Positions 5,799-29,314 of a stretch of 29,314 nt of DNA are shown in pieces. This DNA is from a virus: positions 1 through 29,314 of the IMG/VR virus record IMGVR_UViG_3300028883_000113. One strand, written 5' to 3'. Under the pieces are notes generated by a model that saw only the letters and a list, made by a program, of their open reading frames with translations, made no database searches and was not told the DNA's origin. The stretch's first letter is position 1, and each line of letters opens with the position of its first letter. A program made the translations under genes and the position numbers.

Positions 5799-6425
5799 TC
5801 AGCCATTGCGCCTGTGTTTATTCGGCCAAAGCTTCCTATAAAGGTCAGGGTTTAGTCGGGCAATGTTTGCCTTGGACCCATACTTCTTCAGGGCAGCTTG
5901 TTCATTGGCATCAACTTCCCTTCCCCCTGGTTTTGAATCATCAGGGGCAGGGGCTGCTGGTTTGACAATTGTTGACGCGACTGTCTGCAGTGTCTTGGTG
6001 TCAAAGTCTGCATATGGTTTTGCAGCATCTTCACCCAGGGCATCAGCAATCTTGTTCAGGGCTTCACTTCTGATGCCCTGTTCAAGTGCATCATATTGTT
6101 CAGCCTTGGGGGTCAGTTCAGCCACCTTTTGTGTCAGGGCTTCATTGACCTTGGCAAGTTCACCATCTTCCTGCAGTTTCTTCAATCGCGCCTGTTCCAG
6201 TGCATCCTGTTGTTCCTTCAGCTTGGCTTCTGCAGCTTCAGCCCTGGCAAGGGCTTCATTTTTCTTCTGGCTGATTTCAGACAACCGCTTTTTTGCCCAG
6301 TCAGGTGCATCATCAGGGATGTTGTCACCACCACCATCGGGTGGGGGTGTTTCAGCAGGGGGCTTGTCCCCACCACCATCATTGTCTGGACTTAGGAAAA
6401 GGAATGCATGTTCTTTCAACATCAT
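5799..6425 (-). CDS. Capsid scaffolding protein
   Basis: A 208-residue highly charged protein directly upstream of the capsid gene. It starts with a Pro/Gly/Asp-rich disordered stretch (residues 12-40), then a long coiled coil rich in Ala, Glu, Lys and Gln (about 45-115, for example EALARAEAAEAKLKEQQDAL), and ends with a basic segment (KLWPNKHRRNG) that would bind the capsid subunit. This layout is typical of scaffolds that guide procapsid assembly. ATG 6425 overlaps the upstream stop by 4 bases and AAAAGGGG lies before it. Confidence 0.85.
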   Translation of the reverse strand: MMLKEHAFLFLSPDNDGGGDKPPAETPPPDGGGDNIPDDAPDWAKKRLSEISQKKNEALARAEAAEAKLKEQQDALEQARLKKLQEDGELAKVNEALTQKVAELTPKAEQYDALEQGIRSEALNKIADALGEDAAKPYADFDTKTLQTVASTIVKPAAPAPDDSKPGGREVDANEQAALKKYGSKANIARLNPDLYRKLWPNKHRRNG

Positions 6426-7135
6426 TGAACCCCTTTTGTGGGTGGTTCAGCAACTTCACAGGGCATCCTTGAAACAGAATGCACCTTGAAGACTTGCTGA
6501 TCAGGGAAGGTTTTGATCACTTGTTCTGCAGCAATGACTGACCGTTTCTTCCCTGGTGTTAAGGTCAAGCTTGCTGCTCCATTGACAGGGGTTGTCCCTT
6601 TGACATGGTGGTTCATGAAGTCCTGTGCAATGGATTGTTCATATTGAATCCCCTGGGGGAATTGAAGGCTGATGAAGTCCAGCCCAACTGTGTAAACTTT
6701 CTTATATCCCAGATGCAAAGCCAACCAAAGGGTTGCCACCCCTGACTGTCCTGTTGTGGGGTAATCATGGAAGGGGGTGCCTTCAGGCACCTTTTTGGTA
6801 TAGTCGCCATTGAAAAAGAAGACGCCTGCAGCCTGTTCTTCAGGGGTGAAGTGATAGTGCCTGTGATAGTGGCTGGTCATGATGACAACCTTGCCAGGGT
6901 GCTTGATCATTTCAGCCTGGACCCTGGGTGACCTTTCAAGGGCACAGGCACACAAGGCACCATATTTCAAAGTGTGGACACAGATGATGTCACCATCAAA
7001 GTTGTCCCAGTCATTCCAGATGAAGGTGGTGGGTGCAGGTGGATGAAGGGCAGCAAGCCCCTGGTCAACACACTGCTGCTGATCAAGTTCAGTCCTGCCT
7101 ATCACAAGGCACTGGTCTGAAGTTCTGCTGATCAT
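6422..7135 (-). CDS. Glycosyltransferase/MptE-like Rossmann protein
   Basis: A 237-residue protein from ATG 7135 (MISRTSDQCLVIGR). A TTG at 7171 is in frame but lies inside the upstream gene without a ribosome-binding site, so I reject it. The N-terminus has a Rossmann-like strand. The centre has GQSGVATLWLALHLGY followed by KKVYTVGLDF, the pattern of DUF115/MptE-like and CST-type sialyltransferase families, where it forms the nucleotide-sugar-binding core. A His-rich segment (SHYHRHYHF) precedes it. Such genes would transfer a sugar to a glycan or protein; the acceptor is unknown. It is coupled to the scaffold by a 4-base overlap, unusual for an enzyme. The exact family is uncertain. Confidence 0.55.
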   Translation of the reverse strand: MISRTSDQCLVIGRTELDQQQCVDQGLAALHPPAPTTFIWNDWDNFDGDIICVHTLKYGALCACALERSPRVQAEMIKHPGKVVIMTSHYHRHYHFTPEEQAAGVFFFNGDYTKKVPEGTPFHDYPTTGQSGVATLWLALHLGYKKVYTVGLDFISLQFPQGIQYEQSIAQDFMNHHVKGTTPVNGAASLTLTPGKKRSVIAAEQVIKTFPDQQVFKVHSVSRMPCEVAEPPTKGVQ

Positions 7136-7145
7136 GCCCGAAAGA

Positions 7146-7295
7146 TCAGACCTTGCCAGTGATGAAAGCAATCAATTCTTCCTTGGTGGTGAAGACCTGT
7201 TCTTCAGTCTTCATGTGCCCCAGGTCATTGCCCTTTGGGGGGTTCCAGATCGTGACCAGCCAGCCACCACCCACCTTCTTAATTGTCAGCTCCAT
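7146..7295 (-). CDS. Small protein, unknown function (49 aa)
   Basis: The frame runs from ATG 7295 to TGA 7146-7148 and encodes MELTIKKVGGGWLVTIWN at the N-terminus, then EEQVFTTKEELIAFI. The pattern of two beta strands and a helix resembles small phage domains with a GGW...V turn. It begins one base after the upstream stop and ends 10 bases before the next ATG, so it fills the gap precisely. Function unknown. Confidence 0.6.
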   Translation of the reverse strand: MELTIKKVGGGWLVTIWNPPKGNDLGHMKTEEQVFTTKEELIAFITGKV

Positions 7296-7296
7296 C

Positions 7297-7767
7297 TTAC
7301 TTCCCCATTTTGATTGTCAGCTTTTTGCCTGAAGCATGTTTCTTGATGTTCAAGGCAATCTGCCTGTTCATTCTTCCCATTGCAGAAGCAAGCACATTGT
7401 CAGACACAGGCTTTGACTTCAGTGTCACTGCCCTGCCCCTGTCTGCATTGCCAATAATCTTCCCTGATTCAGATGCTGTCCAGCCTATCCAGACCTTTGA
7501 CCTTGTTGCCCTTCTGGGCTGCAGGTCTTGCATCATGTCACCAGTCAGCACAAGGTTTGCCCTGTTGCTGACTTCTGATTGTCTTCTAAACTTCCCTGCT
7601 GCCTTCCTGCTGGCATATCTGGGGGAAAGGGGCTTGAACTTTTTACCCAACACGTCCACCCCATTAGTCATGGTTTCATCCCTGATCATGTCTGACATAT
7701 GGTTGCCAAGCTTGATCATGAAAGGCTTGCCCAGATTGACAATCTTTTGGCCCTGCAGAAACATCAC
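7297..7767 (-). CDS. Virion morphogenesis protein (Mu gpG-like)
   Basis: A 156-residue basic protein. The segment KKFKPLSPRYASRKAAGKFR followed shortly by LVLTGDMMQDL matches the phage virion morphogenesis (Mu gpG / tail completion) pattern of a 'plspry' turn, a Lys/Arg-rich loop and a TG-D-M helix. The C-terminus is Lys-rich. In related phages it acts at head-tail joining. It overlaps the minor head gene by 4 bases, the same order as F then G in Mu-like phages. Confidence 0.75.
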   Translation of the reverse strand: MMFLQGQKIVNLGKPFMIKLGNHMSDMIRDETMTNGVDVLGKKFKPLSPRYASRKAAGKFRRQSEVSNRANLVLTGDMMQDLQPRRATRSKVWIGWTASESGKIIGNADRGRAVTLKSKPVSDNVLASAMGRMNRQIALNIKKHASGKKLTIKMGK

Positions 7768-8555
7768 AGACCTGCCTGTTCCTGAAGGGTTTGGGGTTTG
7801 TAGGTTCCGGCATCCTTCTTCTGCTGGATGATTGCACCAGCCTTCACAGGATCATTGAACTTCTGTGAAAGGTCCGTCTGCACTGCCCACCTGTGCCTGC
7901 AGTTGAACCCACCACCATCAAGGAAGGCACCTGGGAACCTTTCATCAATCTGCTTCCTGGTCAGGGGTCCAGCATTCAGCATGGCAAGACAGACATCCCT
8001 GGTCTTTTCATCAGTTTTGCCAATGTAAAGATATTTTGTGTCTTCAGGCAGTGCTTCAGACATGACTGCATTCACCTGCCGGCTGAATGTCTTCAGGGCA
8101 GTATCAACCAAAGTCTTGACCTGTCCACCAGTCAGGGTCTTCCCTGCTGCTGCCTGCACTGATTTGGCAAGCTTGTTCTTGGGCACACCTGCCAGCACTG
8201 CCTTCACCAGTTCCCCCTTCAGTGTCCCTGACATCCTGGGCACCAACTGCATGAAGGTTGCCTGATTCACTTCAATCAGGGACTGAATCACCTGGGGGGT
8301 GATGGGTGCAACGGTTTCAATGTTTTGTAGAATGGCAAGCTGTGCAGCCCTTAGTGCTTCCAGGTCACCCCTAAACCCCAGGGTGTCAAGGATCAGACTG
8401 TCCATGTCAAGCTGGTTGATGAAGATGACCATGTTGCTTGCCTTGGTTCCAGTGAAGTTGTCAACAACCCACTGCCCCACAGCAAGGGTCACCCGTTCAA
8501 CTGCCCTGAACAGGTTGTCTGATGCTGATGCTGGCAAGTTAGGCATTCCTGACAA
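7764..8555 (-). CDS. Minor head protein, Mu F / SPP1 gp7-like
   Basis: A 263-residue protein following the portal, the normal position for this family. The C-terminal third carries the family signature: YLYIGKTDEKTRDVCLAMLN at about 175-194, then a loop ending GGGFNCRHRW at 214-223. Family members attach to the portal inside the head and help assemble or eject DNA. The N-terminal two thirds are helical. The ORF overlaps the zinc-ribbon gene upstream by 17 bases and the Mu G-like gene downstream by 4 bases. Confidence 0.85.
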   Translation of the reverse strand: MSGMPNLPASASDNLFRAVERVTLAVGQWVVDNFTGTKASNMVIFINQLDMDSLILDTLGFRGDLEALRAAQLAILQNIETVAPITPQVIQSLIEVNQATFMQLVPRMSGTLKGELVKAVLAGVPKNKLAKSVQAAAGKTLTGGQVKTLVDTALKTFSRQVNAVMSEALPEDTKYLYIGKTDEKTRDVCLAMLNAGPLTRKQIDERFPGAFLDGGGFNCRHRWAVQTDLSQKFNDPVKAGAIIQQKKDAGTYKPQTLQEQAGL

Positions 8556-8937
8556 ACCCCTTCAGGATCACATGGGTTCCTTCCCCACAGTGCCTGCACT
8601 TTGACCAGGACAGCAGCCTTCCTGATCCTGACACTTTGGGTGCCTTGAAATCATTGCCCTTCCCACAGTTGATGCAGAAGACCCTGATGCCCTGCTTGGA
8701 CTGCACAAAGGTTCCAGGTGCCCTGTGTCCAGGCATTGCAGCCCATTCCCTGATGACTGCATCCTGCTTCTGGTAGTTGTAGCTGTGGAACCTGGCATCT
8801 TTGGAAAGTCCCTTTTCAATGCCTTCCTGCATGTTCCTGATTTTTGCAGCCTTCATTGCCTGATTCCTGGCATGCAATGATTCAAGGTGATCATCAATGT
8901 TCACCCTGTCCAAGATGATTGCAGCAGACTTGTTCAT
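8539..8937 (-). CDS. Zinc-ribbon protein in head operon (132 aa)
   Basis: Two CxxC pairs (Cys88/Cys91 in CINCGKG and Cys114/Cys117 in CRHCGEG) form a four-cysteine zinc ribbon at the C-terminus. The N-terminal half is helical and basic, with HARNQAMKAAKIRN. It starts 4 bases inside the portal gene and overlaps the minor head gene. A DNA- or protein-binding role in head assembly or packaging is possible, but no specific family is recognised. Confidence 0.7.
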   Translation of the reverse strand: MNKSAAIILDRVNIDDHLESLHARNQAMKAAKIRNMQEGIEKGLSKDARFHSYNYQKQDAVIREWAAMPGHRAPGTFVQSKQGIRVFCINCGKGNDFKAPKVSGSGRLLSWSKCRHCGEGTHVILKGFVRNA

Positions 8938-10349
8938 TCCAGTTCCCCCTGGGGCTGCTGGTTCAGAGCATTTGCAATGGCTTGTTCACCTGCTGTCATG
9001 GGGGTGCCAGCCTGCTTGAATTCAGCAGACTTCTGCAGGTTTTCCCTGATGTGTTCTTCAGCCTGCATCAGTGGGGTGATGTCATTGTCAGGATCACCAG
9101 GGAAGGCATCTGGGTTGCTTTCCAGCAGTTCCTGTGCATATGTGGACCACCCATTCTGGACCTTCCATTCTGCCTGTTCACGTTTTTCCTGGGCAGTCTG
9201 CACCTGTTCAGTCTCATGAAAATCAAGCTCCATCCCATCAGGCAGGGACTTTCTGAAGTGATATTTGACTTGTGCTTGTCTGATCTTGTATAAGTCCCTG
9301 TGAATCATGCGCCAGTTTTCCAGGGTGCCTGCCCTGTTTTCCATCAGTTCCTGGTTCCTGATATTCAGTGCCAGTCCAGATTCAGGGGCAACCCCCTGCA
9401 CAAACTTGGCATCAAGCCCATAGTTCTGGGCAATGCTGGCATAAAGAAATTCAACCCCTGTGATGGTGTCTGCCACATGGCTGCTGATTCCCACTGCACC
9501 CATCTTCACCCCTGGGGGCAATTCAGTGAAGGCATCCTGACTGATGGTGATGTCACCTGCATTCTTGACCCCTTCAAGGTAAAGGTAATCAAAGTTTTGG
9601 AATCTGATGTTGGCATTCATTTCAGTCAAAGCAAGGTTGATGGACAGGTTGGTTTCAATGATGTCCATGCAGGGCATGAAGTTCATGAAGGCTTCTTCAG
9701 GGGGGGCACCTTCAGCAAAGCAGAAGATGCCAGGGAGCATCCCATATGGGTTCTTTCCCTGTAGGGGGTCTTCACGTTCAAGGACTTCACCACCCTTCAG
9801 ATACAAGAACTGTTCATCAGCAGACCAGAATGCCCAGACTTCCCCTTCAGTGCTGGTCACTTCACTGGATGCCTGGACAGGGTAAGTCACAGCAACAGGC
9901 TGCATGGGGTCACCATCAAAGATGGGCACAAAGTCCCTGATGATGTCCAGTTCAAGCCTGCCATTCCTGAAAGTGCTTTTCAGGAAGATACCTTTCAGCA
10001 GGTTCAGCATCCTTTCAGCCCTGGGCAGCTTCACCCCATCCATGACAGTGGCTTGCCTGTAGACCTTTACCGCTTCTTCATTGGCATCATCTGGGAAGAT
10101 TGCATTAGGCTTCACCTTGTGGACAAGGCTGATCCTTTTGATGATCCTTTGTGTGATGTTGTTGTTTGCAAAGGCAATCTGATTCACAAGTTGCCGGTCA
10201 AAGTATCCCAGGGTTTCTGCTTCAGTGTTGCCTTCATAGTATTCAACTGCCCTGTTGGCACTGTCAACCCTGGCATCAGCTTCAGCCTGTTGTGCCTGCA
10301 TCTGTGCATGCTGCATCCATCCAAGTGCTTGGTCAGACAGTGGCATCAT
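8934..10349 (-). CDS. Portal protein
   Basis: A 471-residue protein between TerL and the minor head protein, the standard place for the portal through which DNA enters and leaves the capsid. It starts with helices (QALGWMQHAQMQAQQAEADA), then NRAVEYYEGN and the stretch QLVNQIAFANNNITQRIIKR typical of SPP1/phage portal N-termini, and a stem/crown region with NLALTEMNANIRFQNFDYLY. The C-terminus is acidic and Gln-rich. Length fits the 450-500 residue portal class. ATG 10349 or 10346 may be used; AGGGGTG lies just upstream. A 191-base gap separates it from TerL. Confidence 0.85.
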   Translation of the reverse strand: MMPLSDQALGWMQHAQMQAQQAEADARVDSANRAVEYYEGNTEAETLGYFDRQLVNQIAFANNNITQRIIKRISLVHKVKPNAIFPDDANEEAVKVYRQATVMDGVKLPRAERMLNLLKGIFLKSTFRNGRLELDIIRDFVPIFDGDPMQPVAVTYPVQASSEVTSTEGEVWAFWSADEQFLYLKGGEVLEREDPLQGKNPYGMLPGIFCFAEGAPPEEAFMNFMPCMDIIETNLSINLALTEMNANIRFQNFDYLYLEGVKNAGDITISQDAFTELPPGVKMGAVGISSHVADTITGVEFLYASIAQNYGLDAKFVQGVAPESGLALNIRNQELMENRAGTLENWRMIHRDLYKIRQAQVKYHFRKSLPDGMELDFHETEQVQTAQEKREQAEWKVQNGWSTYAQELLESNPDAFPGDPDNDITPLMQAEEHIRENLQKSAEFKQAGTPMTAGEQAIANALNQQPQGELE

Positions 10350-13184: not shown

Positions 13185-13542
13185 TGTTTCCCAGTACCCT
13201 GCCCAGAATGTCTGCAAATTGTTCACGCTCATGGCTGATCACATCAGCCCTTTCAGCAGCAATGGCTTCAGCCTTGATCTGGTCCCTGTGGGATGCAACT
13301 GCAAAGATGCCTTCCTTGCCTGCTGCTTCCACTATTGCCTGAATGACATGGGTGAACTGGGCATCAACCAGCCCAGACCACTTCATGAAGGGGGCGGTTT
13401 CTTGCCCTGTGTCCAGGTATTCCATGACAATCTGGTCTTCCCTGGGCACCAGTTGCCAGTTCCTGCCACCTTCAGTGCCTATGATGAATAAGCTGGTGGT
13501 CCTGGTCCAGGGTTCATGGCTGATAAATGCTTCAACCTTCAT
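13138..13542 (-). CDS. Hypothetical protein (134 aa)
   Basis: Begins MKVEAFISHEPWTRTTSLFI. The first half looks like a beta sheet with a GTEGGRNWQLVP turn; the second half is helical (AIVEAAGKEG, then KAEAIAAERADVI). The last 14 residues (after GNN) are encoded over the C9 run in a frame different from the downstream gene and look like an accidental tail, which is why a frame change is suspected. It touches the exonuclease gene: its start and the exonuclease stop share base 13542. No family recognised. Confidence 0.6.
   Translation of the reverse strand: MKVEAFISHEPWTRTTSLFIIGTEGGRNWQLVPREDQIVMEYLDTGQETAPFMKWSGLVDAQFTHVIQAIVEAAGKEGIFAVASHRDQIKAEAIAAERADVISHEREQFADILGRVLGNNVCAPPHRHSPCPTF
13167..13175 (-). 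other. C9 homopolymer at the overlap of two reading frames
   Basis: Nine C on the minus strand lie in both frames of overlapping genes. Reading as C8 would take the upstream gene (from 13542) into the frame of the downstream one (to 12990). This could be a slippage site, a phase-variable tract or a sequencing error in a single gene. Confidence 0.45.
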
Positions 13543-14129
13543 CAGAACACCTGCAGTGAATGAAGGTCATCAAACACCATTGCCAGCTTTCTGGTCTGCC
13601 TGATGTCATACATGGCTTCATGGGCTGCTTCATCATCCCAGGGAATGCCTGCCTTTTCACAGCATTCCTTCAGGGTGAATCTTTTCATGCTGCCCCTTTC
13701 ATTAATCCACATCAATGCAGCCCACTGCATGACATCAATGGGGGGGAAGTAGAACCAACTGCCAACATACTGGTCACCAGCAAGGTTGAACAGTTCCCTG
13801 ATGAAGTCCATGTCAAATCTGGCATTGTATGCAAAGAACTGGAATTTGTCCTTGGGGTCAAATGGGTTCACAAACCCCCTCATGACCTGCATCAGTTGCT
13901 GGTGTGCCTGTGCCACTGTCACCCTGTCTGGTGAAGTCAGGTCTTCATAGGTCAACCCGTTCACTTCCAGTGCCTTGGCATTGGTGTTCTGGTCGGGCAG
14001 GGGTCTGATCTGGATGTTGAAGTCTGTCTGTTCCACACCATCAATGATGATCATGCCTGCAATCTGAAGCAGGGCATCAGTCTGGGGGTTGGTGCCCCCT
14101 GTTTCTGTGTCAACCCAGAATTCTTTCAT
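13542..14129 (-). CDS. DEDDh-type 3'-5' exonuclease
   Basis: A 195-residue protein of the DnaQ/RNase T superfamily. ExoI is WVDTETGG (Asp7, Glu9), ExoII is AYNARFDMDFI (Asn102 to Asp106), and ExoIII is HEAMYDIRQT (His170, Asp175), giving all expected DEDDh catalytic residues. Two metal ions would be used to remove 3' nucleotides. Lacking a polymerase domain, it may trim recombination ends with the ERF protein or degrade host nucleic acid. ATG 14129 carries the repeated AGGGAAACACA leader; an upstream extension to 14252 lacks support. It overlaps the sulfotransferase gene by 4 bases. Confidence 0.9.
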   Translation of the reverse strand: MKEFWVDTETGGTNPQTDALLQIAGMIIIDGVEQTDFNIQIRPLPDQNTNAKALEVNGLTYEDLTSPDRVTVAQAHQQLMQVMRGFVNPFDPKDKFQFFAYNARFDMDFIRELFNLAGDQYVGSWFYFPPIDVMQWAALMWINERGSMKRFTLKECCEKAGIPWDDEAAHEAMYDIRQTRKLAMVFDDLHSLQVF

Positions 14130-14752
14130 TGTGTTTCCCTCTCCCCCATGAAATGCAATGGGGCTTGTGTTGATCCTGCAGGGGGGGTGAAGCCTGTGAA
14201 CCTTTCCTGTGGCAGTTCCCACCCCCTGGGATATTTGGCAGTGACACCCCACAGGTCAAGGATTCTGTTGATGACCCTTCTGGGGTTGATGATCAATGCC
14301 TTGTATTCAACCACCATGTCAGGCATGTTGTCAATGTGAAGCTTGGCATACCTGTCCAGTTCCTTGACCATCATCACAGGGTTCCTGGTGGGTTTCCTGC
14401 CCTTCCCTTGCCTAGCATATGCCTGAACAATCTCAACAGGGTTCCTGTGAAGGAAGACATATTTGGTGCCAATGTGGGCAAGATTGTTCACACTTGGAAT
14501 GATGTGCTGCTTGTGGACTTCTTCATCATAGACCCATCTTTCCAGGGTGTCATTCCATTCAAAACAATCACCATGCCTTCTGGGCAGTTCAGTCCACCAT
14601 GTGGTGAAGTCAGGGTGAATGCTTTTGTCATGATCCTTCAGCCTTCTGATGATCAGACCATTCACTCGCTGCCTTGCCTGCCAGTCAAGCAGGTCACCCA
14701 GTGCCTTCATCAATGAAGTGCTTGCAGTCTTGGGCATTGCAACAATCAGCAT
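14126..14752 (-). CDS. Sulfotransferase-like protein
   Basis: A 208-residue P-loop protein. AMPKTASTSLMKAL at about 5-18 is the 5'-phosphosulfate loop of the sulfotransferase family (consensus PKxGSTSL), and YVFLHRNPVEIVQAY at about 98-112 is the 3'-phosphate-binding region with Arg103. The Ser usually eight residues after this Arg is replaced by Ala111. The family moves sulfate from PAPS to sugar or other hydroxyls. No PAPS synthesis genes are present, so the host must supply the donor. At 208 residues it is near the short end for the family. It is coupled to the exonuclease by a 4-base overlap. The substrate cannot be predicted. Confidence 0.75.
   Translation of the reverse strand: MLIVAMPKTASTSLMKALGDLLDWQARQRVNGLIIRRLKDHDKSIHPDFTTWWTELPRRHGDCFEWNDTLERWVYDEEVHKQHIIPSVNNLAHIGTKYVFLHRNPVEIVQAYARQGKGRKPTRNPVMMVKELDRYAKLHIDNMPDMVVEYKALIINPRRVINRILDLWGVTAKYPRGWELPQERFTGFTPPAGSTQAPLHFMGERETQ
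14127..14140 (-). promoter_or_regulatory. Repeated ribosome-binding leader, copy 2
   Basis: AGGGAAACACAATG followed by AAA at the start of the exonuclease gene. Identical over 17 bases with the copies ending at 2349 and 27238. The upstream gene also ends in RETQ because the leader overlaps its last codons. Confidence 0.7.
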
Positions 14753-14979
14753 GTCTTGTCCTGTTTGTCCAGGTTGGTGAAGTCAATGGTCAGCACAAGC
14801 TTCCTTTCATGGACTTCATGGGTCAGGGTTGTGGCAAGCTTGGCTGCTGCATCATTGACAGCCTTTCTGATCACAGCATCAACCTTCTGCTGTGCTTCTT
14901 CCAAGATAGGCCCTGCAGCTTCATCAAGTTCATGCTTCAGCAACACAAAGAATGCTTCAATTTCACTGTCTGGAATCAT
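14746..14979 (-). CDS. Small helical protein (77 aa)
   Basis: I take ATG 14979 (MIPDSEIEAFFVLLKHELDE), which overlaps the HNH stop by 4 bases; an ATG 27 bases upstream is weaker. The protein is a continuous amphipathic helix for about 55 residues (EEAQQKVDAVIRKAVNDAAA) followed by a beta-like segment (KLVLTIDFTNLDKQ). It could be a small coiled-coil partner protein. It overlaps the sulfotransferase gene by 7 bases. Confidence 0.6.
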   Translation of the reverse strand: MIPDSEIEAFFVLLKHELDEAAGPILEEAQQKVDAVIRKAVNDAAAKLATTLTHEVHERKLVLTIDFTNLDKQDKTC

Positions 14980-15305
14980 TGCACACCTTCTTGTATGAAT
15001 GGACACCCATGCCCACCATCAGGGTGAATGCCCCTGTATATTCTGGAAAGGTTTTCAGCCACTGCCCAAGGGTCAGGAATGCCCTGCTTCACAAGCCATG
15101 AAAAGGTTGTCCCAAATTGATAGTCATGACAGTGCCTGTGGTGCATCCAGCACAGTGGCAGCAGGTTGTCAGGGTCCAGCCCACCCTGTGACCTGTGCTT
15201 CAGGTGGTGGGGGTGGGCACCCTTGATGTTGCAGCCTGGGATGCTGCAGGGCAGGGTGCTGATCCAGTCCCTGTAGACAGCATCAATGGCAAGTATTTCA
15301 GGCAT
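14976..15305 (-). CDS. HNH endonuclease
   Basis: A 109-residue HNH nuclease. CSIPGC (Cys20, Cys25) and PLCWMHH (Cys52, His55/56) form the zinc site; HPHHLKHRSQGGLDPDNLLP (about 31-50) holds the catalytic His and the Asn of the HNH motif. It resembles DUF968/Ref-type phage HNH proteins. HNH proteins near terminases can stimulate packaging cleavage in related phages, although here several genes lie between. It overlaps neighbours by 4 and 8 bases. Confidence 0.85.
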   Translation of the reverse strand: MPEILAIDAVYRDWISTLPCSIPGCNIKGAHPHHLKHRSQGGLDPDNLLPLCWMHHRHCHDYQFGTTFSWLVKQGIPDPWAVAENLSRIYRGIHPDGGHGCPFIQEGVQ

Positions 15306-19251: not shown

Positions 19252-19489
19252 AATTCATCCTTCCATTTTTCCAGGCACCATATCTAATGCCCATTCTGTC
19301 ACAGTATGACTGACCCTTGATTGCTGCATCCATGCTAACAGTATCAAAACCCAGGGCACCACACTTGACACACCTAAACTGCTTGATCCTTGTCATGGTT
19401 GAAGTGGCTGTCCTTTGGCTGAAGTGGTACTTGGTGAAGTCTTCAGCCCTTTCCCATTCATGTGGGCAGTCTGGTATGCTGTCAGTCAT
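19241..19489 (-). CDS. Small zinc-finger protein (82 aa)
   Basis: ATG 19489 (MTDSIPDCPHEWERAEDF) overlaps the ERF stop by 8 bases; a longer start at 19549 lies inside ERF and is rejected. Cys8, His10, Cys40 and Cys43 (CPHEW and RCVKCGA) match the pattern of small phage CxH...CxxC fingers. The C-terminus has further basic residues and one late Cys. Likely nucleic acid binding. Confidence 0.65.
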   Translation of the reverse strand: MTDSIPDCPHEWERAEDFTKYHFSQRTATSTMTRIKQFRCVKCGALGFDTVSMDAAIKGQSYCDRMGIRYGAWKNGRMNCVN

Positions 19490-20351
19490 TTGGGGTCCAG
19501 TCTGGGAATTCCTGCTTGAATAACCCCCGCAAATCATCAATGATTCCAACCCTTTCCCTAAGGTGCTTCATGGCAATTGCCTGCAAATCTGTAGTTGAAA
19601 AGGTTGCTTGCAAATAGCCTGCAAGGGTTGAAAGTGCCTTCTGTTCCTTCCAGAACTTTTCAATGCCGATCAATTCCCTGTGAAAATCATCAACAGTTGG
19701 ACCAGCAGGAACACCCCGTTGCTGCTGTTCTTCCCTTCCCACTTTCCTAAAATTCAGTTCCTGGGTCACAAACACCCTGACATGATCATCCTTGGTGTTC
19801 TTCTGCACCCATTCAAGGTATTCATCAGGGACATCTGACCATGAAGAATCCTTGTGTTTCCCAAACCCCACAAGGTCAGTCCTTCTGATGGTGGTGGGTT
19901 TGGTGCCTGATCCTGCACCATTGCTGCCCCCTCTGGGCTGCTGCTTGTCTGCACCCCTGTTGTCCTGGTGGTCTGCATCCTTGATGTCATCCAGGCAGAA
20001 CAGTCCATTCAGGGCATACTTCCTGGCATAGCTGGAAGTTGCACCTGTGATCTGGGCTTCATCCATGCCCTTCTTGTGTTCAGGTTCCCTGGCATATGCA
20101 TTGACAGTGATGGATTCAGCACCCCTGGTCAGGCTGGCTGACACCTTGACATAGTGCCTGCCCTCTATGCAGACCACTTCATCTGACAGCAGCAGAATGC
20201 ACTTGTGTTCAGCAATGAAGGGTTTGCTGGCAGCAAGGATGTCTTCAGCAGACCTGAAGGCATACCCCCCAAATTCATTGAACTGCCCCTTTGGGGCTTT
20301 CATCCCTGACTGAATTGCAACCAGGGCTTCCTGCAAATTGGTTGTTGACAT
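19482..20351 (-). CDS. erf: ERF-family single-strand annealing protein
   Basis: A 289-residue protein from ATG 20351 (MSTTNLQEALVAIQSGMKAP). The ERF domain spans about 1-150, with YAFRSAEDILAASKPFIAEH and the signature MDEAQITGATSSYARKYALN followed by GLFCLDDIKDAD. It anneals complementary single strands during recombination and replication restart. After a Gly/Ser/Gln linker there is GFGKHKDSSWSDVPDEYLEW (about 182-201), resembling DUF3820/ExoX C-terminal domains, so the protein looks like a fusion. The exonuclease at 13542-14129 could supply single strands. It is preceded by a hairpin and the early leader. Confidence 0.85.
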   Translation of the reverse strand: MSTTNLQEALVAIQSGMKAPKGQFNEFGGYAFRSAEDILAASKPFIAEHKCILLLSDEVVCIEGRHYVKVSASLTRGAESITVNAYAREPEHKKGMDEAQITGATSSYARKYALNGLFCLDDIKDADHQDNRGADKQQPRGGSNGAGSGTKPTTIRRTDLVGFGKHKDSSWSDVPDEYLEWVQKNTKDDHVRVFVTQELNFRKVGREEQQQRGVPAGPTVDDFHRELIGIEKFWKEQKALSTLAGYLQATFSTTDLQAIAMKHLRERVGIIDDLRGLFKQEFPDWTPND

Positions 20352-20361
20352 GATCTTCCTT
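20345..20361 (-). promoter_or_regulatory. Early ribosome-binding leader, copy 2 (ERF)
   Basis: AAGGAAGATCATGTCAA at the ERF start, identical with 18434-18450. A second, start-less AAAGGAAGATCA lies about 40 bases upstream next to the hairpin, and could act as a ribosome standby or decoy site. Confidence 0.65.
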
Positions 20362-20399
20362 TCAGTGTAGACTTGTCTTTGATCAACTGATCTTCCTTT

Positions 20400-20428
20400 G
20401 CAGCCCCAGGGTGACCCCCTGGGGCTGC
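20400..20428 (-). other. 12-bp perfect hairpin in ERF leader
   Basis: GCAGCCCCAGGG (20400-20411) pairs perfectly with CCCTGGGGCTGC (20417-20428) around five bases. No T-run follows on either strand, so it is not a standard terminator. If transcription starts from the candidate promoter at 20432-20460, it lies at the extreme 5' end of the mRNA, the position of stabilising hairpins. Confidence 0.65.
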
Positions 20429-20431
20429 TGT

Positions 20432-20460
20432 ATGTTAGCACCACACACTGGGAAATTCAA
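20432..20460 (-). promoter_or_regulatory. Candidate promoter for ERF operon
   Basis: TTGAAT (20460-20455), 17-base spacer, TAACAT (20437-20432) on the minus strand; four of six matches in each box. It overlaps the last codons of the methyltransferase gene. Confidence 0.4.
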
Positions 20461-21110
20461 ATAGATTCTGAATTGTGATGCTTCAATAAGTATTCACCCC
20501 ACTGCACTGCCATTGCTTCTGCAATCCCTGGAAGTGTCTTTGACCTGATTGCCCCCCTGTCTTCTGATGGGGGCAGGTTGTACCATAGGGGCAGCTTGTT
20601 GCCCCCCTTTGTGATATGAAATTCACCATGCCCCACATGGGTCTTCTGGTGGAACAGGTCATCTTCTGCATAGTGCTTCAGCAGGGGCAACCCTTCAAGC
20701 CATAAACAGGTGCCCTTCTGTGCTTCATCACCGAACATCCACGGCTGAATAATCTGGTCTGGTTTCCTGTAGTGGGTGGACATGATGCCCTTGGGGTTCT
20801 CAATGGCAACATGGGGAATGTTTGTCTGTGTGAACTTCATGAAGAATTCAATTCCCTGCTGCTGCCTTCCATCTGCAATCTTTTCTGCAAAATGCTTTGC
20901 ACCACTTGAAGCAAGGTGTGTGCAGGGGGGGTGGGCAATCATTGCTGTCCATTCACCACTGTTCATCACAGGGATGACATCACCCCTGATGTGCCATTCT
21001 GGGTGACCACCAGTGCAATCCTTCAGGTCACAACTGTAGGCTTCAAGACCATGCCTTCTGAATGCAATGGTCACTGCCTGTGATTCTTCACATGCAATCA
21101 AAATCTTCAT
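20457..21110 (-). CDS. DNA cytosine-methyltransferase-like protein
   Basis: A 217-residue protein of a recurrent phage family usually annotated as cytosine methyltransferase. It starts MKILIACEESQAVTIAFRRH, the SAM-binding strand region, then AHPPCTHLASSGAKHF (PPC-containing motif IV with the catalytic-type Cys) and VAIENPKGIM (ENP in place of ENV, motif VI), then HYRKPDQIIQPWMFGDEAQK. It is much shorter than bacterial C5 enzymes and lacks an obvious target-recognition domain, so activity on DNA is not certain. It may modify phage DNA to escape restriction, or act on a nucleotide. It starts 3 bases after the upstream stop. Confidence 0.7.
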   Translation of the reverse strand: MKILIACEESQAVTIAFRRHGLEAYSCDLKDCTGGHPEWHIRGDVIPVMNSGEWTAMIAHPPCTHLASSGAKHFAEKIADGRQQQGIEFFMKFTQTNIPHVAIENPKGIMSTHYRKPDQIIQPWMFGDEAQKGTCLWLEGLPLLKHYAEDDLFHQKTHVGHGEFHITKGGNKLPLWYNLPPSEDRGAIRSKTLPGIAEAMAVQWGEYLLKHHNSESI

Positions 21111-28746: not shown

Positions 28747-29314
28747 TCAGAACCTTCTGATTCTGGTGGTGCCCAGGGTGCCTGTGTCCACCCCCACCTG
28801 CTGCACAGTCAGAACAAAGGTGTCACCATCATTGAACTTGCCTTCAGTGAACCTGCCCTTGACCCCACCACCCAGGGACTGCATCAGCCCAGTGATCAGG
28901 GTTGTGCTGTGAATGGTGTTGTTCTGGCTGTCCTTCACTGAATATGACAGGGTACTATTCAGGGTGCCTGCAGCCAGGGTGCCTGTGCCAGTAATGGTGA
29001 TGATGAATACTTCATAGTCAAGGACAGGATCACCCTGCACATCTGCAATGAATCCTGTGGTGTCTGCACCAACAGTGCCTTCATCCACCCATGCCTTGTC
29101 TGATCTGGTCTGCTCAAAAGATAGCTTGATGTCACCATCATTGATCTTGTCAACAATGCCCTTTTCCTGAAAACCACCAATGGCACCACCAATCACAGTT
29201 CCAATCTGTTTCCGCAATAGTTCCACATCATCACTGTCAGGTGCAGTGGACCTGACAAGATGCCAGCAGGCAAGCAGGGCACATGACATCACAATCCAGT
29301 AGTCATACTGGACA
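28747..29314 (-). CDS. Head-tail adaptor (Mu gp36-like), C-terminal part, cut by window edge
   Basis: This is the remainder of the adaptor that starts at 561 on the other side of the junction; 29188-29314 duplicates its coding sequence at 1-127. The segment holds the second adaptor helix (VMSCALLACWHLVRS) and a beta-rich C-terminal region of about 130 residues (for example VFIITITGTGTLAAGTL and DTFVLTVQQVG), which resembles an extra Ig-like or sandwich domain not found in short gp36 homologues. A GTG at 29292 can mimic a start, but the reading frame is open upstream, so it is internal. The stop is 2 bases before the next gene. Confidence 0.7.
   Translation of the reverse strand, partial: VQYDYWIVMSCALLACWHLVRSTAPDSDDVELLRKQIGTVIGGAIGGFQEKGIVDKINDGDIKLSFEQTRSDKAWVDEGTVGADTTGFIADVQGDPVLDYEVFIITITGTGTLAAGTLNSTLSYSVKDSQNNTIHSTTLITGLMQSLGGGVKGRFTEGKFNDGDTFVLTVQQVGVDTGTLGTTRIRRF
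29188..29314. repeat. Right copy of 127-bp terminal direct repeat
   Basis: Exact copy of bases 1-127. Removing one copy gives a 29187-bp circle in which the adaptor gene is a single 1002-base reading frame (561 down to 1, then 29187 down to 28747). Confidence 0.95.

Follow-up and report, generated by a model that had tools for sequence, protein, structure and literature searches.

A divergent family of sulfotransferase-like proteins in tailed phages, found with sialic-acid synthesis genes

The phage protein family described here shares its fold order (strand, PSB, helix ... strand, 3'-PB, helix) with proteins of the Pfam families Sulfotransfer_3 (PF13469) and Sulfotransfer_1 (PF00685), with the cytosolic SULTs, and with bacterial relatives of these enzymes. 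The PF13469/PF00685 proteins and the SULTs also have the PSB lysine, a K-x-H element, and the 3'-PB arginine in common with the family, but the phage proteins are only ~190–210 aa long and carry Ala in place of the PSB Gly and, in 8 of 9 family members, Ala or Cys in place of the 3'-PB Ser. The tyrosylprotein sulfotransferases TPST1 and TPST2 were the top Foldseek matches of the AF2 model of the phage protein, and the carboxyl-terminal element of one family member (YYKELVLHPxxxLxKIL in L033) matched them by sequence. However, the TM score to these proteins was about 0.5 at 12–15% identity, and TPSTs are larger and belong to the secretory pathway; we found no evidence here for a peptide acceptor such as theirs.

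In its proposed activity, the phage protein can be likened to WSCD1 and WSCD2, PAPS sulfotransferases that catalyze the 8-O-sulfation of sialate on finished glycans (PMC9304399). This is the same activity that gene context leads us to propose for the phage protein. WSCD1 and WSCD2, however, are deuterostome Golgi membrane proteins of ~570 aa, while the phage protein consists of a single domain. Echinoderms have 8-O-sulfated and 8-O-methylated sialic acids (PMC6994554), a suggestive pairing given that methyltransferases flank the phage enzyme or are fused to it. The sulfated sialic acids found in the literature, in these two reports, are of animal origin, so that an enzyme from a phage or bacterium would add a new source of this chemistry.

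Among phages, Sulfotransfer_3 has been reported in OM43-type phages, with a function stated to be unclear (PMC10580990); going by that description only, the likeness to our family lies in the presence of sulfotransferase genes in tailed phages. Other phage sulfotransferases, of a PKTGTTS type, form a different branch with little similarity beyond the N-terminal motif. Precedent for phage genes that alter the sialic-acid-like sugars of capsules comes from Acinetobacter, where two reports describe 8-epimerisation (PMC12053666) and O-acetylation (PMC6586298) of bacterial nonulosonates by phages or prophages, a chemistry that differs from sulfation. In phage DLP4, a NeuB-domain gene was reported without explanation (PMC6469090). 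No description of phage sialic-acid cassettes with sulfotransferases was found in the literature searched, which included few subscription papers and no preprints.

The window analyzed here is a 29,314-nt stretch, positions 1–29,314 of virus record IMGVR_UViG_3300028883_000113. Its bases 1–127 are repeated exactly at 29188–29314, forming a direct end repeat of 127 nt, and a 337-aa ORF crosses the join of the two ends; the genome is therefore closed, with a length of 29,187 bp. A typical tailed-phage gene set is encoded, including a terminase, a Mu F-like head protein, a major head protein, a tape measure protein, an Erf-like annealing protein, and an endolysin. The best identity found for the terminase was 46%, with ~40% being typical, and none of the terminase relatives examined carried a member of the sulfotransferase family. 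A preliminary description of the window had pointed to a sulfotransferase-like ORF beside genes for a DEDDh exonuclease and an HNH protein, all of which were recovered:

14126..14752, minus strand: sulfotransferase-like protein, 208 aa, ATG start (from the ORF, profiles, AF2 fold, and Foldseek)
13542..14129, minus strand: DEDDh (DnaQ/RNase T-like) exonuclease (PF00929, E=9.1e-14), likely ATG at 14129
14746..15006, minus strand: 86-aa ORF with no assigned function, overlapping the start of the sulfotransferase gene
14976..15305, minus strand: HNH-endonuclease-like protein (phrog_22514, E=7.6e-6)

The sulfotransferase ORF lies exactly at the coordinates described, but on the minus strand, and the plus-strand frame across the same positions is interrupted by stops. 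Its stop codon overlaps the start of the exonuclease gene (ATGA), and its start overlaps the stop of the upstream 86-aa ORF (ATGCTGA), so that the gene appears to share a single compact transcription unit with the HNH-like gene. At the level of sequence, the reality of the ORF beyond chance was confirmed by a match to PF13469 (E=3.3e-4) and by a leave-one-out family HMM, which recovered the window protein at E=1.6e-24 over residues 1–187.

Direct protein searches with the window protein yielded no significant match in viral_contigs, genome_contigs, INPHARED phages, plasmids, PDB, or PHROGs, and a gapped two-motif DNA pattern search yielded no matches. Homologs were instead recovered by scanning DNA with degenerate patterns of the N-terminal motif and then by family alignment; as these scans require the exact motif, members with other N-termini are missed. 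The 8 full-length homologs comprise 7 proteins in 5 uncultured phage contigs (L033, L071 with 2 tandem copies, L072, L079 with 2 copies, and L081) and one in a genome of the phylum Planctomycetota (L076). One of the 2 copies in L079 is fused to a methyltransferase, and in a sixth phage contig, L082, the gene is a deleted remnant. L033 showed 28% identity to the window protein (pairwise E=1e-18), while L076, the one clear bacterial relative to emerge from the whole-genome search, was detected at E=9.3e-13 with a two-sequence model and at 3e-32 with the full model. In the tree, a 100/99 branch split the 9 family members, window included, from 7 Bacteroidota sulfotransferases, and the window protein grouped next to L081 and L076 (80/81).

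Sampling of further bacterial phyla gave a more distant 444-aa relative in 1 of 398 genomes (phylum of a gammaproteobacterium), no family relative in 348 genomes (phylum of a Lachnospiraceae genome), and generic sulfotransferases only in 247 genomes (phylum of a Saprospiraceae genome). The 444-aa bacterial protein (L095, 8615–9949, minus strand) has a related sulfotransferase domain with the motif YKGHIHPTPNNL, and the genes around it show no visible connection to sialic acid. PKTA-pattern matches in bacterial genomes were rejected as other sulfotransferases or chance, and L035 and L073 as chance pattern matches.

Three elements of the window protein align with functional sites of known sulfotransferases:

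14711..14734, minus strand: 5'-PSB-like motif PKTASTSL, residues 7–14 (alignment, motif table)
14495..14512, minus strand: KQHIIP, residues 81–86 (profile alignment to PDB 2reo/2h8k, motif table)
14417..14446, minus strand: 3'-PB-like motif RNPVEIVQAY, residues 103–112 (alignment, motif table)

Both PAPS-binding elements that had been read from the sequence beforehand are present, PKTASTSL at residues 7–14 and LHRNPVEIV at residues 101–109, and the alanine noted in place of the usual serine is Ala111, 8 residues after Arg103. Lys8 of the 5'-PSB and Arg103 of the 3'-PB are invariant in all 9 family members. K81 is kept throughout the family except in L033 (Arg), as is H83 except in L079a (Tyr, giving KEY). 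In the profile alignment, the family K-x-H (K81 and H83 in the window protein) matches the KTH of human SULT1C3, the catalytic Lys/His of SULTs.

Some of these residues raise the question of whether sulfate transfer has been lost, leaving a PAPS-binding relic or noncatalytic paralog that is kept for binding or is decaying. The PSB Gly is replaced by Ala in 9/9 members (Ala10 in the window protein) and the 3'-PB Ser by Ala in the window, L079a lacks the His, and the gene in L082 (about 7990–8210) has an internal deletion of ~370 nt relative to L072, although the genes on either side are 93–97% identical. The sulfotransferase step is thus dispensable in some phages. The position 8 residues after the Arg, however, is Ala in the window, L081, L072, and L076 and Cys in L033, L071a, L079a, and L079b, with Ser in L071b; that is, Ala or Cys in 8/9 family members versus Ser in 7/7 Bacteroidota comparison proteins. 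As the replacement is common to the family, it does not reflect damage to the window copy. The same Ser-to-Ala change is also seen in the phage sulfotransferase-like proteins L024 and L037. Moreover, the window protein retains Lys8, K81, H83, and Arg103, and its ORF is intact and packed tightly between overlapping genes. A relic is improbable in our view, and the window protein is probably an active sulfotransferase.

Profiles, homologs, and the predicted fold all support the enzyme class that had been proposed, a PAPS-type sulfotransferase with a P-loop fold. On its own, the window protein matched Sulfotransfer_3 at 21.4 bits against a cut-off of 27, but other family members passed: L033 reached 27.3 bits, and L071a exceeded the cut-offs of both PF13469 (E=2.2e-8) and PF00685 (E=6.9e-7, residues 2–172). 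When the family profile was compared with PDB sequences, almost all matches were sulfotransferases, such as SULT1A3 (E=1.9e-6). The alignment with SULT1C3 (PDB 2reo/2h8k) spans the PSB, K-x-H, and 3'-PB, pairing PK.AsT with PKSGTT, K-x-H with KTH, and RNP with RNP.

Structure prediction and comparison with PAPS-dependent enzymes, the check proposed in the preliminary description, likewise gave a P-loop sulfotransferase-type fold. The single window sequence was uninformative in AF2 (pLDDT 35), but an 8-sequence alignment produced a model with pLDDT 72.1 and pTM 0.74. Foldseek ranked tyrosylprotein sulfotransferases first (E about 1e-5), with probability 1.00 to TPST, SULT, and Stf0. VIA-align Z scores of the same model were 9.4–9.9 for sulfotransferases and about 12 for shikimate kinases; P-loop kinases thus score at least as high as sulfotransferases, and the fold alone does not discriminate between the two. 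A small P-loop kinase-like protein of shikimate-kinase fold would account for these Z scores, but the Walker A motif GxxxxGK[ST] is absent, the loop reads VAMPKTASTSL with no Lys at the Walker position, and profile searches returned sulfotransferases and not a single kinase. For these reasons, we read the higher kinase scores as reflecting the P-loop core common to both folds and the chain length, kinase chains being nearer in size, and rejected the kinase reading on sequence as very improbable. The window ORF almost certainly encodes a sulfotransferase-superfamily protein, and its family forms a divergent branch within the superfamily of PAPS sulfotransferases.

An indication of the acceptor came from the genes surrounding the relatives. 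In L072 and L082, the order is HAD phosphatase, NeuB, NanE-like protein, sulfotransferase, and head-tail genes; in L082, a sialyltransferase-like/GT fusion is also encoded, as is a CMP-sugar cytidylyltransferase, and a neighbor there matches a sialyltransferase PHROG (phrog_4603, E=4.7e-12). L071 encodes a sialyltransferase-like protein, cytidylyltransferase, NeuB, methyltransferase, NanE, 2 sulfotransferases, and head-tail genes, in that order. The order in L033 is sialyltransferase-like protein, cytidylyltransferase, sulfotransferase, methyltransferases, NeuB, and head-tail genes, and that in L079 is sialyltransferase-like/GT, cytidylyltransferase, NeuB, NanE, TauE/SafE transporter, sulfotransferase, and sulfotransferase-methyltransferase. 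In L081, methyltransferases and a cytidylyltransferase precede the sulfotransferase, which is followed by NeuB and a GT29 sialyltransferase (E=5.6e-18). About 3 kb separates the bacterial relative L076 from NeuB (E=4e-76), and an alpha-2,8-polysialyltransferase (E=3e-22) is encoded in this interval.

NeuB (sialate synthase) was thus present in 6/6 family-bearing phage contigs, a small sample in which L072 and L082 are close relatives, one of them with a deleted sulfotransferase gene. It was found in none of 16 terminase relatives of the window phage and in 1 of 19 phage contigs with other sulfotransferases. Fisher tests gave p=1.6e-6, or 9e-6 with L072 and L082 counted once, values that are rough since contigs are not random draws and several cassettes are related. 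This link between the sulfotransferase family and sialic-acid genes is a new observation that was absent from the preliminary description. The sole NeuB-positive contig among the 19 controls, that of L037 (G882), encodes a different, PKTASTS-type sulfotransferase-like protein.

As a further observation on these 6 phage contigs (L071, L072, L033, L079, L081, and L082), near-complete nonulosonate pathways are encoded among the virion structural genes or next to them, with components drawn from NanE or a phosphatase, NeuB, CMP-sugar synthetase, and sialyltransferase-like proteins. In L079, a TauE/SafE-type anion exporter gene (6655–7407) directly precedes the 2 sulfotransferase-family genes, the second of which is methyltransferase-fused (7411–9245).

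These neighborhoods also bear on what had been said about timing and target. An early function, for which the only basis is the operon shared with the HNH and exonuclease genes, found no support; in 5/6 phage relatives, the sulfotransferase gene is located within the module of virion structural genes or adjacent to it. Of the suggested targets, a surface glycan fits the neighborhoods of the relatives, while a nucleoside or signaling molecule found no support. As this small, phage-enriched family is found in nonulosonic-acid (sialic-acid-like) cassettes, the acceptor would most likely be a nonulosonate or its carrier glycan.

The window phage itself has a different setting. Its sulfotransferase gene lies outside any glycan cassette, its genome contains no NeuB, and no recognizable cytidylyltransferase was found among the window ORFs scanned. 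The 127-nt end repeat and the ORF through the join ruled out that NeuB is missing simply because the window is incomplete. In a closed genome without NeuB, any nonulosonate would have to come from the host. One ORF in the window was weakly sialyltransferase-like:

6422..7171, minus strand: possible GT42/DUF115-like (sialyltransferase-like) protein encoded among the head genes; weakly supported, may be unrelated

This ORF, 7 kb from the sulfotransferase gene, weakly matched the alpha-2,3-sialyltransferase phrog_4603 (E=0.022), and an HMM built from 4 sialyltransferase-like domain sequences of the relatives ranked it first among window ORFs (E=0.021, ~37 residues), with the match confined to an SGxxxLxLAxxxGxxxxYxxGxD region. 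BLASTP against the sialyltransferase-like proteins of 2 relatives gave no match, which leaves the ORF as only a weak lead. The window phage could therefore at most attach a nonulosonate made by the host, or else the acceptor is another sugar.

Sulfotransferases switch acceptor readily, and the sialic-acid link of the relatives may not be transferable to the window protein. An active PAPS sulfotransferase whose acceptor has no connection to nonulosonates (a different sugar, a lipid, a peptide, or a small molecule) would agree with the lack of NeuB in the window genome and with the position of the gene among HNH and exonuclease genes rather than glycan genes. The distant bacterial relative (G194) also sits among unrelated genes, on a contig of 15 kb in which NeuB was not evident. 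On the other hand, both of the nearest neighbors in the tree, L081 and L076, are encoded close to NeuB, and the weak sialyltransferase-like ORF lies in the window head module. We regard an unrelated acceptor as a serious, if not a probable, alternative.

The window protein would most likely O-sulfate a surface glycan, using PAPS supplied by the host, and kinship and gene context favor a nonulosonate-bearing acceptor. Taken part by part, it is fairly likely that the acceptor is a carbohydrate, and possible, though short of probable, that it contains a nonulosonate. We infer PAPS use, activity, acceptor, and product location in the following mechanism. The ORF would encode a minimal single-domain PAPS-type O-sulfotransferase, in which PAPS made by the host would occupy the P-loop (Lys8) and a 3'-phosphate pocket (Arg103, with Ala111 replacing Ser), and K81 and H83 may serve as a SULT-like catalytic pair. 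A hydroxyl on a nonulosonate or its carrier glycan would be sulfated, and the product may be displayed on the virion or the host envelope, where it would alter the charge of the surface and its recognition by receptors or lectins. As a whole, this PAPS-type glycan O-sulfotransferase acting on a nonulosonate-containing glycan is our best explanation, which we put forward tentatively.

The tracking of sialic-acid synthesis genes by this family provides a concrete and testable acceptor for phage sulfotransferases, and suggests that some tailed phages make and sulfate their own sialic-acid-like glycans with genes adjoining those for capsid and connector. A broader reading, which we consider rather unlikely in its entirety, is that phages carry a dedicated O-sulfotransferase for nonulosonates, equivalent in prokaryotes to WSCD1/2, within a sialic-acid-like pathway among the virion genes (NanE, NeuB, CMP-sugar synthetase, sialyltransferase, methyltransferase, and sulfotransferase) that would coat virions or hosts with sulfated sialic-acid-like sugars. 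The window phage would then be a minimal member that uses host sugar.

Elsewhere in the window genome, an ORF at 20457–21110 (minus strand), which lacks a Pfam match, adjoins the gene for the Erf-like annealing protein (19482–20444) and matches phrog_757, annotated as "DNA methyltransferase" (E=7e-61).
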